IMG/VR virus record: IMGVR_UViG_3300044970_000388
Location: 1 to 25,492 of that record
Source of the DNA: a virus
Strand: one strand, 5' to 3'
Length of the DNA stretch: 25,492 nt
Part shown: positions 1,833-18,468 of the stretch, piece by piece
Layout: each line of letters begins with the position of its first letter
Numbering within the stretch: the stretch's first letter is position 1
Notes under the pieces: generated by a model
Told to the model about the DNA's origin: nothing
Database searches by the model: none
Seen by the model: the letters and a program-made list of their open reading frames with translations, nothing else
Position numbers and translations under genes: made by a program

Positions 1833-4126
1833 CGCGTTTGTCTGATTATGTTAATAGTTTCGTCTTGCGTTTCTCCGTTCGTTAAATCGTAAACTACGAA
1901 AATAGTTGTTACTTGGTCAACACTTAAAGTAATATTAATAACTTGGCTTTGTGTTATTTCTAACGGGTCTATTATAACGTCGCTTTGTCCACTTGAAAAC
2001 GTAGCCTTGTAGGCTTGGTTTGGTAGGTTTATTCCTATGTCTATATTCGTTTCTTCATAACCTACTTGGATTATTCTAATTGGGCTAATAGGCATAAAAT
2101 CGTTAAGAAGTTCGAAGGTAGTTTCACCCGTTACCATATTCGTTTTCATCTGATTAATTAGGTATCGTTTGTCTCGTATAACTAACCTATCGTTTAGTTG
2201 TAGGCTTGTCAGTAAACTTGTAGGAAGATTCGCCTTAATTGTGGTAAGTCGGTTTTTTGGATTAAACAAATTCGTCAAGTACGGAAAATAATACGTTCGG
2301 AACATAGATTGGTTAATAACTTGTAACCAATAGGTAGAAGTTTCGGGCGCAAAGTTCAAGGAGTAATCAATACCCAATACTTTTAGGTCTTGACCAAACA
2401 TAACATAGTCGGGGTTGGTAACGTTTCCCGTTCCATCGGTGTAATGGATATGGTGCGGTAAAGTAACAGACCCAAATTTGTAAAGTAAACAAGGTTTAGG
2501 AATATAAGGCGCAAACGCACTATCTAACGAGTACCCTACTTGAAGTCCCGTTGGGTTTCCTAACTCGAAGAATTGATTAAATAGTAGATTCTCAAAAGGA
2601 AGTTCTACGTTAAATTCTCCCCCGTCGTATGGGTATTGATATTCCGTGTTTCCGTATTCCCTTAACGCTTGGTCAAAAAACGCTTTGTTCATAAAGCTAT
2701 TTGACTGTTGATACCTAAAAGCTATTTTCTTGTATAACTTTACGCGGTCTATTCCTATTTCGGTTTTGTCCGTGAATTTAGTTATGTCGATAATTGCACC
2801 CGCGGAATACCAATCGTCCAACGGGATAACTTCGTAAGTGTTGGGCGCAGTACCATAGCAAGTTAGGTTATATTCCTTTAGGATTCCCGAAACAAAATCT
2901 TGTACCTTCATAGTAGGCGCTAACCAAGCAAGGTTAGTCGTAGCGCTTGTAGTTATGGTGTTAGTTGAATAGTCGACAAAGTCATTATAACTTACAGAAC
3001 TAATAACATAATCAACTGAATACGTCAATAAAAAATCAATGCTTAAACCAACGTCGCTTCGAAGCTGAAAGGTGTATACGTCGTTTAATCCTTGAACGTT
3101 TGGAATCGCCACCAAGTTTCCGTTAGTATTATATCCTAATCCATTCCAAGTTGCATAAAGAGTACCATTCTGATAAACATCTATATAAAATGGAATTGTA
3201 GGGTTTGAGTTGTTTGATATAAATAAATAAACATTATGAAAACTAACGCCCGACAAAAAGTTTAAAGTTACCGTACTATTTAAGATGTCAACGTAAGGAA
3301 TAAGATTATAAATTCCGTGACCACCCCCACCGACAAAACTATTTAAAGTAATATTTTCGGGTTGGCTTGTAAAGGCAAAGTTATTTCTATTTTTAAACCA
3401 AAGGTAAGATTGCGTAAACTTTGGGTCGCTCAAAAAAGTACCCGTAAAATTCACTCCGTATCTATTTTCGATTAAATTAAATATCGAAGCTACCCTAACG
3501 GCAGGGAATAGTTCTCTGTAATCTATTGCCCCTTGGTTCGTCCTTATGTCGTTAGTGTTCATAGGAATATTAACAAAAGGTAACCAATTAGGAAGGGTTG
3601 CAGTCGGTTGAACTGCGCCGTATTCCCAAATCCGATTGGAAGTTATTAGCGGGTAACATACGTCCCAATCAATAGCCCCGTTAGTAATTCTTTGGTAAAC
3701 TTCAGCGAAACTATAGGTATGATTTATTGGGGTGTAGTCAAGGTCGCTTAATAAATCTTCGCCTACCAAGTCTTTAAGGGTTGTAACGTCTCCATAAAAA
3801 GTAATCGTATAGGAGTCGGGTTGTCCGTTTTTCAATTGGCTCTTTTCCATTTGAATTTTGCCCCTACGAAAAAAAGTCATATCAATTTCTATGTACCCGT
3901 CTAAACGTTCTTGGTAGTTAATAGAACTATTCAAGGCGTTCTCGTAGAAGTATTCCCAAATTGAATTATTCTTGGGGCTTGTAGGAATCGTAAACGACTG
4001 CGAAAAGTCGGTAAACGTTTTACTTATGTCTTGTATATTTTGAATAGTCGAAGTTACTTCTATTACTTCGTCGTTAAATAGGTCTAATTGTTGACCTTCT
4101 ACAAAAACCCTTACTTGTCTTTTCAT
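1829..4126 (-). CDS. Large tail/baseplate structural protein (765 aa)
   Basis: A 765-residue protein lying directly upstream of the tape measure region. Its opening (residues ~10-55) carries a pattern I associate with a Bacteroidota-phage tail family: a short LDLF motif, then an acidic turn, then alternating beta strands with 'DIS...F..FS.SFTIP'. The rest is rich in aromatic and Asn/Thr residues and predicted beta structure, with no catalytic motif visible. It starts with ATG at 4126, overlapping the stop of the previous gene by one base (TAATG). A distal tail or baseplate-hub role is inferred from size, composition and place, not from a defined domain. Confidence 0.65.
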   Translation of the reverse strand: MKRQVRVFVEGQQLDLFNDEVIEVTSTIQNIQDISKTFTDFSQSFTIPTSPKNNSIWEYFYENALNSSINYQERLDGYIEIDMTFFRRGKIQMEKSQLKNGQPDSYTITFYGDVTTLKDLVGEDLLSDLDYTPINHTYSFAEVYQRITNGAIDWDVCYPLITSNRIWEYGAVQPTATLPNWLPFVNIPMNTNDIRTNQGAIDYRELFPAVRVASIFNLIENRYGVNFTGTFLSDPKFTQSYLWFKNRNNFAFTSQPENITLNSFVGGGGHGIYNLIPYVDILNSTVTLNFLSGVSFHNVYLFISNNSNPTIPFYIDVYQNGTLYATWNGLGYNTNGNLVAIPNVQGLNDVYTFQLRSDVGLSIDFLLTYSVDYVISSVSYNDFVDYSTNTITTSATTNLAWLAPTMKVQDFVSGILKEYNLTCYGTAPNTYEVIPLDDWYSAGAIIDITKFTDKTEIGIDRVKLYKKIAFRYQQSNSFMNKAFFDQALREYGNTEYQYPYDGGEFNVELPFENLLFNQFFELGNPTGLQVGYSLDSAFAPYIPKPCLLYKFGSVTLPHHIHYTDGTGNVTNPDYVMFGQDLKVLGIDYSLNFAPETSTYWLQVINQSMFRTYYFPYLTNLFNPKNRLTTIKANLPTSLLTSLQLNDRLVIRDKRYLINQMKTNMVTGETTFELLNDFMPISPIRIIQVGYEETNIDIGINLPNQAYKATFSSGQSDVIIDPLEITQSQVINITLSVDQVTTIFVVYDLTNGETQDETINIIRQTR

Positions 4127-15432: not shown

Positions 15433-16296
15433 TTAAAATCCGTGTTTTATTACTTCTATTGGGTTAACTCCGTACACTTCAAAGCCTAATCCGTAGTTAA
15501 AATTACATAAAACTTGCTCATTTAACCCCGTGTGTTTCCCGCCCGTGTCCATATCCTTTACTTTTTCTACTCCTACCATAGTTTTATACTTCATTTCTTC
15601 GTGTTTAATTAACCTGTGAATAACAAACATATCGTCGCATCTATTAAGAAAAGCCTTCCCGCCTTCGATATGGTCTTTTAATGGGGGCTTTAAATGTCCT
15701 TTCCAATCGCCTTCAGTATATAAGTTGCCACTTCGTCCACTTTCCGTATTGGGGTGGGTGTTTATATAGATAGTCATACCCGTACGATTAACGAACTCCC
15801 TTGCTTTATTCATAAAAGTGTAGTTCCCTTCGTATGTCATTTCTCTATCTAACCCCGTAAAAGGGTCAATTAACGCAACGTCGCACCCCGAATTTTCAAA
15901 TATGGTCAAAAGTTCCAACGGCTTATAAAGTTTTGAGTTATCCACGAAGTAAAAAAATTGTTCTAAATAACCCAAGTAACTTTGAATCTGTTGAGTAGTT
16001 AGGTTTTTAAAAGGTTCACCCGCATACATTTGTATTATGTCTCTTAATATTTGTCCCTTTTGGTTTTCTCCCGACCACAAACAAAACTTTAATCCGTGTT
16101 TTAATGCCAAGACAAGAAAGTACCAATTAATCCAATATGTTTTACCTACGTTGTCGTGTCCTAAAATAATGTTTAGTTGTTTACGTTTAAATCGTAGGTG
16201 TTCATCTAACCCGCAACCAATACCCAATCCTTCTTTAATCTTCCCTTCTTTGTAGTCAAGTAGGTATTTAATTGTATCTCCTTGTTTAGTCAGCAT
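15433..16296 (-). CDS. DnaB/RepA-type RecA-fold replicative ATPase
   Basis: A 287-residue single-domain RecA-fold ATPase. It has Walker A 'GHDNVGKT' (46-53), a 'CLWSGEN' strand (72-78), and Walker B 'CDVALIDPF' (138-146), followed by 'IYINTHPN' resembling the sensor strand of RepA/DnaB proteins. The N-terminal DnaB domain is absent, so it resembles RepA-like helicases or a helicase fragment. It overlaps the initiator gene upstream by 11 nt, a pairing typical of phage replication modules. The Walker A uses Asp-Asn-Val before GKT, an uncommon variant. Confidence 0.8.
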   Translation of the reverse strand: MLTKQGDTIKYLLDYKEGKIKEGLGIGCGLDEHLRFKRKQLNIILGHDNVGKTYWINWYFLVLALKHGLKFCLWSGENQKGQILRDIIQMYAGEPFKNLTTQQIQSYLGYLEQFFYFVDNSKLYKPLELLTIFENSGCDVALIDPFTGLDREMTYEGNYTFMNKAREFVNRTGMTIYINTHPNTESGRSGNLYTEGDWKGHLKPPLKDHIEGGKAFLNRCDDMFVIHRLIKHEEMKYKTMVGVEKVKDMDTGGKHTGLNEQVLCNFNYGLGFEVYGVNPIEVIKHGF

Positions 16297-16963
16297 TTCG
16301 ATAGTCTTTAGTGTCTACATAATTAAGCATTTTTTGAACGTAGTTATACGTCTTCATATCGTCGGATAATTCTTCTTCTTTTGGTAGCTTGTCCCAAAAT
16401 AAACCTTGCCAACCATTTTCGATAGAATTAGAAATAACAAAATTACATTGTTCTTCAGTAAAGTTTTGCATCTTATTTAAAATTGTTTCCTGCGTAGCTT
16501 CTTGAATTGGTTTTTTAATCTGTTTTCGATATGCTACCCACTTGTCTAATATTAGTTCTTTTTCATTCTTTTCTTTCTTATCATTCTTGTTTGTTGTTAG
16601 TTGTTTGTTAGTCGTTTGTTGTTTGTTTGTTAGTGGTTTGTTAGTTGGTTCGTTTTCGTCTTGGTAACATTCATATTTACAGATAGTTATAAGGCTATTT
16701 CTGTTTGTTGATTTAACTATTATTTCGTTTGTCTTTTCAAACTTATTTAATAACGTTCTAATCGTCTGAATACTTATGCCCGTTTCCGCTGAAATCTTAC
16801 CTAAAGACGAAATAAATTGACCCCGTTTTATGTCTATTCCTTGCCATTGTGAATCCTTATGGTTAGCCTTTAAGAGTATGTATAAGAACAAGTGTACCGC
16901 TTCGCTTTTCTCGAACCATTGCCAATCTAAAAACTTTCTGTGTATCTTAATCCAACCGCTCAT
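16286..16963 (-). CDS. Replication initiator (lambda O / DnaD-like)
   Basis: A 225-residue protein. The N-terminal ~95 residues ('GWIKIHRKFLDWQWF' ... 'SLGKISAETGISIQTIRTLL') form a winged-helix DNA-binding domain typical of phage O-like proteins. A Thr/Asn/Lys/Gln linker at ~105-130 is encoded by repeated GTTTGTTAG-like units (see 16589-16644). The C-terminal part resembles DnaD/DnaT-type helicase-loading regions. It is followed and overlapped by the helicase-like ATPase. Its leader contains a structured RNA. Confidence 0.8.
   Translation of the reverse strand: MSGWIKIHRKFLDWQWFEKSEAVHLFLYILLKANHKDSQWQGIDIKRGQFISSLGKISAETGISIQTIRTLLNKFEKTNEIIVKSTNRNSLITICKYECYQDENEPTNKPLTNKQQTTNKQLTTNKNDKKEKNEKELILDKWVAYRKQIKKPIQEATQETILNKMQNFTEEQCNFVISNSIENGWQGLFWDKLPKEEELSDDMKTYNYVQKMLNYVDTKDYRNAD
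16589..16644 (-). repeat. Iteron-like repeats inside the initiator gene; candidate origin
   Basis: On the minus strand CTAACAAAC occurs at 16611-16603, 16633-16625 and 16644-16636, with two near copies (CAACAAAC) at 16621-16614 and 16596-16589. Lambda places its origin iterons inside gene O, so the position fits. The alternative is a simple low-complexity linker coding region. Confidence 0.5.
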
Positions 16964-16981: not shown

Positions 16982-17072
16982 AAAAAACCCTCGCAACTCC
17001 GTAGGCTCTCACTTCTACTTCATTACAAGGGTTAGTAACTTCTTTAAGGTTCTATAATGTGAGAGACGAACC
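16982..17072 (-). ncRNA. Structured leader RNA with possible kissing loop and terminator-like end
   Basis: If transcription starts about six bases after the -7 element, the RNA begins GGUUC near 17072. It can form hairpin 1, GGUUC/GAACC (17072-17068 with 17052-17048). It can also form hairpin 2, AACCCUUG/CGAGGGUU (17033-17026 with 16993-16986, one U-G pair), followed by U residues. The loop of hairpin 1 contains CUCUCAC (17065-17059) and the loop of hairpin 2 contains the exact complement GUGAGAG (17012-17006). Both cannot be free of each other, so a kissing interaction or an antiterminator/terminator switch is possible upstream of the initiator gene. Structure predicted by eye. Confidence 0.55.
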
Positions 17073-17077
17073 ATTTG

Positions 17078-17085
17078 CAAATATA
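17078..17085 (-). promoter_or_regulatory. -7 promoter element (TATATTTG) of the leader RNA
   Basis: Minus-strand TATATTTG at 17085-17078 matches TAnnTTTG. No TTG is seen at the usual -33 distance, so it may be weak or need an activator. It lies just after the stop of the DnaA-like gene. Confidence 0.45.
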
Positions 17086-17090
17086 ACTAA

Positions 17091-17489
17091 TTAATTTAAT
17101 ATTTGTTCATTTTCGTTTTTATATTCGTTTCTTTTTATACGTTCTTGGATTGCTTCGAGTTCCTTTATACTTCCGCAGTTTAAAACATCTATAAACAAGT
17201 CGCTTAGGCTTCTACTTATTTCGAAGTTGTTTAGTTCGTTCCTTAAAAACTCCGTGTCTAACATATAAAATTTGTCGCTTTTCTTTTCCCAATACCTTGC
17301 GTTATTGTATGCGTGAATACAAGTAGCGTGGTTCTGTTTTAGAAGTTCTGCTATGTATGGGTAACTTGCACCGTGTCTTCGTAGGAAGTAGACAAGGTAG
17401 CTTCGTTGGTTAACGAATCTTCTTTTTCTGCATTTAGTTTGTAGTTCAAGTTGGCTAATTAGGTCTTTCGCCTTTTCGTAAAGTGTCAT
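17091..17489 (-). CDS. DnaA domain IV-like DNA-binding protein (132 aa)
   Basis: The segment 'RSYLVYFLRRHGASYPYIAE' followed by 'NHATCIHAYNNARYWE' resembles the DnaA C-terminal DNA-binding domain, including a version of its DH(S/A)T signature (here NHAT). The protein lacks the AAA+ domain. I use the ATG at 17489, which has an A-rich leader typical here; an in-frame TTG at 17522 would add 11 residues. It is followed by the initiator and helicase genes, so a role in origin recognition or control of host/phage initiation is likely. The last ~50 residues are helical. Confidence 0.7.
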   Translation of the reverse strand: MTLYEKAKDLISQLELQTKCRKRRFVNQRSYLVYFLRRHGASYPYIAELLKQNHATCIHAYNNARYWEKKSDKFYMLDTEFLRNELNNFEISRSLSDLFIDVLNCGSIKELEAIQERIKRNEYKNENEQILN

Positions 17490-17561
17490 ATCTGTTTTAT
17501 ATTTATTATTAATTTTTCCCAAATGTCCAACACTAATTTAGCGTGGTTAGTATCGTATGCG

Positions 17562-18335: not shown

Positions 18336-18367
18336 CAAATATAAATAGTAAGTTTCAATCCACCAAA
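18336..18367 (-). promoter_or_regulatory. Main early promoter (Bacteroidota type)
   Basis: Minus-strand TTTG (18367-18364), a 20-base spacer, then TATATTTG (18343-18336). This is a full match to the flavobacterial/Bacteroides consensus. It lies in the 187-base gene-free stretch between the late terminator and the first early gene, which is otherwise very AT-rich. Confidence 0.8.
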
Positions 18368-18441: not shown

Positions 18442-18463
18442 AAAAAAAGGGGCTTTTGCCCCC
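18442..18463 (-). terminator. Rho-independent terminator after the lysis block
   Basis: Minus-strand GGGGGC-AAAA-GCCCC followed by seven T (18448-18442). It lies 24 bases after the metallophosphoesterase stop and insulates the late transcript from the early promoter. Confidence 0.9.
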
Positions 18464-18468
18464 TAATT

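Follow-up and report, generated by a model that had tools for sequence, protein, structure and literature searches.

Guanidine-II and other kissing or pseudoknot riboswitches consist of tandem hairpins joined by a loop–loop contact. Kissing loops, with attenuation before replication genes, are likewise familiar from ColE1 RNA I/II and from the pT181 and pIP501 attenuators. In phage P4, the leader of the replication operon gives rise to the CI RNA of immunity, a small RNA in which internal complementarities govern termination, the stops there depending on Rho and on RNA acting in trans. A direct link between loop–loop pairing and a terminator is described for the guanidine-IV (mepA) riboswitch, in which read-through is controlled by a kissing loop that joins the terminator hairpin to a hairpin upstream of it: the contact hinders completion of the terminator stem, and the polymerase reads on (PMC11611296). 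IsrK, from the Salmonella prophage Gifsy-1, is a phage RNA with its own promoter and terminator that reads into the operon behind it (PMC4825925). For phages of Bacteroidota little is known about the timing of replication genes, and the leader described here occupies the position at which control of replication at the RNA level would be most effective.

The leader element and its fold

The window, meaning the whole stretch of DNA analysed, is a 25,492-base IMG/VR phage record whose genes are encoded by the minus strand. The element covers about 90 bases of that strand (91, from 17072 to 16982) and is flanked by a DnaA-type and a DnaD-like gene. From 5' to 3' on the minus strand the features are:

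17091–17522, minus strand: upstream gene, a small protein with a DnaA C-terminal (domain IV) helix-turn-helix (PF08299, E 3e-8)
17078–17085, minus strand: putative promoter -7 box TATATTTG, of the sigma-A type of Bacteroidota (from sequence and conservation in relatives)
17072–17073, minus strand: predicted transcription start, +1 at about 17073 (from box–hairpin spacing and published -7 geometry)
17048–17072, minus strand: hairpin 1, stem GGTTC (17072–17068)/GAACC (17052–17048), stem pairs double-changed in relatives
17059–17065, minus strand: kissing strand a, CUCUCAC, complementarity kept in relatives
17034–17047, minus strand: single-stranded linker UUAAAGAAGUUACU (from alignment A2), with a UUAUU-type core conserved in relatives
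16986–17033, minus strand: hairpin 2, the terminator hairpin (from the fold and double changes)
17006–17012, minus strand: kissing strand b, GUGAGAG, in the apical loop of hairpin 2, complementarity kept in relatives
16982–16987, minus strand: U tract of the putative terminator, six U, with the RNA 3' end predicted near 16982
16286–16963, minus strand: downstream gene, a DnaD-like helicase loader (PHROG 2514, E 1e-30)

A preliminary description of this DNA had pointed to three exact complementarities, and all are present on the minus strand. GGTTC and GAACC pair as the stem of hairpin 1, GGUUC-(G U CUCUCAC AUU AUA)-GAACC, whose loop combines the kissing strand with a conserved AUA (17055–17053) that is invariant in alignment A2. 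The second, AACCCT/AGGGTT, proved to be merely the base of the 12-pair outer stem of hairpin 2 (17033–17022 with 16997–16986), followed by a GAA/GGA internal loop, an inner stem of four pairs (GUAG/CUAC, 17018–17015 with 17004–17001) and a 10-base apical loop, AAGUGAGAGC. The third joins the two loops, CTCTCAC (17065–17059) in hairpin 1 being complementary to GTGAGAG (17012–17006) in hairpin 2, and a kissing helix of seven pairs is possible in the window element. The terminator-like U tract is also seen, at a distance of 18 nt, not 19 as first counted, from the ATG of the downstream gene (16963); this is indeed a replication gene, but one for a DnaD-like helicase loader and not for an established initiator.

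Folded without the pseudoknot, the window element reaches a z of -2.28, with 7 of 200 shuffles equally good, and single-sequence folding generally gave z values of -1.8 to -2.3, modestly better than chance. Such values would still accommodate chance complementarities around an ordinary terminator. Single-sequence folding is weak evidence, and the case for the structure rests on the comparison of phages.

Relatives of the element

Homologues were collected by several routes. A first pattern, constrained for kissing and run over viral contigs, returned many, together with chance matches, and two scans left unconstrained in the kissing sequence yielded variants with other, matching kissing pairs. 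So as not to select for the kissing contact, 80 phage loci were then fetched by the DnaD-like protein alone and searched with a covariance model, R2, which encodes hairpins 1 and 2 and not the kissing pairs; R2 was trained on sequences picked for good kissing, and some indirect bias stays. It located 71 copies in the 80 loci, all on the strand of the DnaD-like gene, and an earlier model (R1), lacking hairpin 1 as well as the kissing pairs in its structure, recovered this element from most loci given to it. Nine loci had no R2 match: three offer too little upstream DNA, two carry a divergent form and four have none, which puts the element in 73 of the 77 loci with enough upstream DNA (71 by R2 plus the 2 divergent). 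Phages carry one copy each in 29 of 32 records tested. Alignment A5 comprises the copies from the protein-fetched loci and the R2 search.

No match to the element or to the loci of eight relatives was found in Rfam 15, where E values up to 10 brought up only a chance snoRNA, and a literature search found no paper describing it. An exact-pattern scan of genome contigs for bacterial homes gave 18 hits, none of which matched the model, and the element appeared in 0 of 399 and 0 of 395 Bacteroidota genomes, among which there was no positive control.

Comparative evidence for the kissing structure

Kissing pairing is kept in all 70 complete copies, with 21 distinct pair sequences and never fewer than 6 Watson–Crick pairs. 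Across 49 distinct rows, 98.9% of 1352 cells are paired, as against 69.1% in shuffles, and cells changed on both sides number 376, as against 99. Compensatory double changes occur in 24 of the 28 pairs of the structure, including six of the eight kissing pairs: pairs 1–6 are all double-changed, and the last two are an invariant AC/GU. In the stem of hairpin 1, 99.2% of cells are paired and every pair is double-changed in relatives, and hairpin 2 is paired in 97.9% of outer-stem and 100% of inner-stem cells, with double changes in both. Ranked by corrected mutual information, the top 19 column pairs fall without exception within the proposed structure, the kissing helix contributing six, and the ranking brings out no further covarying helix such as a competing antiterminator. 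Mapped on a phylogeny of the DnaD-like proteins, the kissing sequence has changed at least 36 times, a count that recombination or tree error could inflate, and GC-richer relatives (L131, L183, L354) preserve the contact with different bases.

Covariation across related phages had been proposed as a check in the preliminary description, and its reservation that homologues might lack compensatory changes falls away, since they show many. What it had envisaged, a pseudoknotted, kissing-loop RNA that would start at a promoter and end in a terminator before a replication gene, is supported at the level of sequence. The same covariation refutes chance complementarity, whose probability we regard as negligible, and from these alignments we judge it close to certain that the structure is real. 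As read from the comparative data, the element is a new, previously uncatalogued kissing-loop RNA family of tailed Bacteroidota phages.

Two copies, L008:2711–2801 and L010:240–330, have 0 differences in the 90 other columns and 5 in the kissing blocks, a matched switch at two separated places between CTCTCAC/GTGAGAG and CTTCCAC/GTGGAAG. Diversifying selection on the kissing strands was considered and rejected: the switch is striking, but there is no overall excess, kissing strands and the rest differing by 0.213 and 0.211, respectively, in pairs at 15–25% divergence. These data also bear on a dual function resembling that of IsrK, by which the terminated short form would act in trans on the read-through form. 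The kissing strands are mutually complementary, and one molecule could therefore bind another, L008 and L010 differ at kissing positions only, and IsrK likewise has a promoter, a small RNA and a terminator ahead of an operon reached by read-through (PMC4825925). However, the kissing strands diverge no faster than the rest, and pairing within a molecule should outcompete pairing in trans; a dual function of this kind seems quite improbable.

Promoter, predicted RNA ends and gene neighbourhood

The TATATTTG box of the window lies 5 bases before hairpin 1, and among 94 distinct copies 87 have TAnnTT[TG]G no more than 25 nt ahead of hairpin 1, 5 nt being the commonest spacing. Mapping of transcription starts in Flavobacterium psychrophilum places the TAnnTTTG box at -12 to -5 (PMC9723704), and the RNA is therefore predicted to start at the foot of hairpin 1. 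The coincidence of RNA start and hairpin proposed earlier holds to within a base, the first base of hairpin 1 becoming +2 if +1 is at about 17073. At the other end, the T run of the U tract is conserved in relatives. Both the promoter and the terminator activity of the element are putative. Further upstream on the minus strand, positions 18446–18464 form a plain intrinsic terminator (AGGGGGC AAAA GCCCCTT and a T run), and 100 bases past it lies a second TATATTTG box (18336–18343); from there, ahead of the kissing-loop leader, the DnaA-like gene seems to be transcribed as a unit of its own.

The DnaA-domain protein family supplies the upstream gene in 79 loci, usually ending 15–40 bases before hairpin 1. 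On the other side a co-directional ORF always begins 13–50 nt after the element, and the distance from U tract to next start codon is mostly 17–22 nt, whichever gene follows. That first gene varies among DnaD-like, several families of 60 aa, HNH endonuclease and GIY-YIG-like, with DnaD and a DnaB-like helicase coming after the variable gene. Because the gene after the leader varies while DnaD follows, the RNA is a feature of the operon's head and not of one gene. An HNH endonuclease is the first gene in 13 loci (L025, L036, L042, L197, L198 and others) and a GIY-YIG-like gene, assigned by eye, in one (L072), as if genes could land at the junction of leader and replication genes without damage to the leader.

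Location between DnaA-domain and DnaD-like genes, which applies to most loci, would also suit a replication RNA, that is, a transcript or R-loop that primes or marks a phage origin between the two genes, much as plasmid kissing RNAs control primers. Such a role is nevertheless very unlikely, given that the element of Tenacibaculum phage Gundel_1 is located elsewhere and that an antisense promoter box downstream (TAnnTTTG on the opposite strand) is not conserved (3 of 110).

Variants and losses

The divergent form (L375 and L423, on the same contigs as L023 and L075) reads CCC-GATGCAG-GGG / GGG-CTGCATC-CCC, with 7-base, fully complementary loops. Another form, in L092 and L093, was found via the DnaA-like gene and has 6-base loops, GTGCAG and CTGCAC. 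L023/L075/L076 and L092/L093 represent two further architectures at the same place upstream of replication genes, both missed by the covariance model.

Isolated phages carry the element as well. In Cellulophaga phage phi18:3 (R2 E 3e-7) it falls inside 3052–3202 of KC821620, on the minus strand, and the kissing strands are CTTCTGAC/GTCAGAAG. Phages phi19:3, phi46:3 and phi13:2 (L343, L344 and L345; about 1525–1620) have a reduced form behind the same promoter, in which hairpin 1 is almost absent and the terminator tip, TTGTGAGA, has a 5' segment, TCTCACAA, as its pairing partner. Gundel_1 has its element ahead of an antirepressor gene, not DnaD. Only one copy, L307 near 800–900, has broken kissing (GGTCTGAC versus GTGAGAGC), as a real loss or perhaps a chimera. 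One lineage (L024/L071) has lost the element, its two genes being joined directly, with no copy elsewhere.

A putative conditional terminator

Analysis of these features leads us to favour, at an evenly balanced probability, a conditional terminator acting in cis in which, by analogy with guanidine-IV, the loop–loop contact sets read-through. Transcription would begin from the element's own promoter at the base of hairpin 1, whose loop would engage the tip of hairpin 2 in 7–8 bp while the 3' arm of hairpin 2 is still incomplete; the contact can precede the finished terminator because kissing strand b lies 5' of that arm. Hairpin 2 and the U tract would constitute an intrinsic terminator, and at the sequence level a terminator hairpin with U tract is present between promoter and first gene. 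The contact may then alter the frequency with which the polymerase is halted some 18 nt short of the next start codon; this frequency would set expression of the helicase-loader/helicase operon, the stopped product being a compact RNA of 90 nt. Its sign could be either: the contact may favour read-through as in guanidine-IV, or equally clamp the terminator. Candidates for what tips it are a ligand, a protein, magnesium and the rate of transcription.

Action in cis is suggested by the near-constant gap to the following gene and the clean loss in L024/L071; co-orientation is weak evidence for it, because all genes of these modules run one way. Against a cis terminator, no covarying antiterminator helix is seen, and the Gundel_1 element precedes an antirepressor gene. 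Furthermore, the terminator hairpins are strong, at a mean of -18.2 kcal/mol, which suits a stand-alone RNA too. The main rival, possible though doubtful, is a stable small RNA of the phage that would work in trans, with RNAs or proteins of the phage or its host as targets; promoter and terminator would then bound its gene, the kissing fold would protect it against nucleases and the operon would be fed by ordinary read-through. Conserved signals defining both RNA ends, a compact fold without a free 5' end, the strong terminator in most copies and the lack of a conserved antiterminator all agree with it. It accounts less well for an element that always lies 13–50 nt before a co-directional ORF and that one lineage lost cleanly with no copy elsewhere, and the window holds no antisense target beyond chance, the longest match being 10 nt where shuffles give 9–15.

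Several further candidate readings were tried and rejected. An antiterminator between GGUU of hairpin 1 and AACC of hairpin 2 is lost in AAGCC-type relatives, which retain hairpin 1, and for one between the linker UUAUU and AAUGA, it is the 3' arm of hairpin 2 that changes in step with AAU, whereas the linker does not (L007, L016, L072). The 19-aa ORF MVRLSHYRTLKKLLTLVMK, a would-be leader peptide from an ATG beside hairpin 1, lacks both ATG and frame in relatives. The AUG inside hairpin 2 (AAUGAA) was rejected as a start and is taken to be structural, since the number of codons up to the stop differs among relatives, of which some (L072, L157) are without AUG.

For the conditional terminator, a speculative and rather unlikely extension is that the conserved, unpaired bases surrounding the kissing helix, namely AUA in loop 1, GAnGU in loop 2 and the linker UUAUU, may make up a binding pocket. 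Its metabolite or protein ligand would signal the state of host or infection, and binding would decide read-through. If true, this would be a new class of phage RNA sensor, and commitment to phage DNA replication would be under RNA control.

Significance and comparison with known systems

The element has an RNA fold with strong support, is absent from Rfam 15 and occurs in most related phages examined, and it probably controls when the replication genes switch on. Its mechanism is directly testable, because isolated phages (phi18:3, Gundel_1) carry it and matching kissing strands can be exchanged together, and its covarying kissing loops provide a natural series for studies of loop–loop energetics and terminator control.

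Among described RNAs, those of plasmid copy control differ in that their pairing is with an antisense RNA, whereas here it lies within one RNA. Comparison with the P4 CI RNA at the level of architecture sets the intrinsic terminator of the element apart, and IsrK acts on translation in trans, the kissing fold not being common to both. Guanidine-II has the same tandem hairpins with loop–loop contact, but the element is without its conserved ACGR loops and has instead a helix of 7–8 bp with freely covarying sequence. Guanidine-IV is alike in its leader of about 100 nt and in kissing between the loops of an upstream hairpin and a terminator hairpin. There, however, a fixed loop binds the ligand and the genes controlled are for efflux (guanidine/multidrug transporters), whereas here both loops covary freely, in 21 kissing sequences, ahead of phage replication operon genes; lacking the defining loop sequence and gene context, the element is not a member of guanidine-IV. 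Control of a terminator by a kissing loop is thus already known from guanidine-IV, while the family described here is new.
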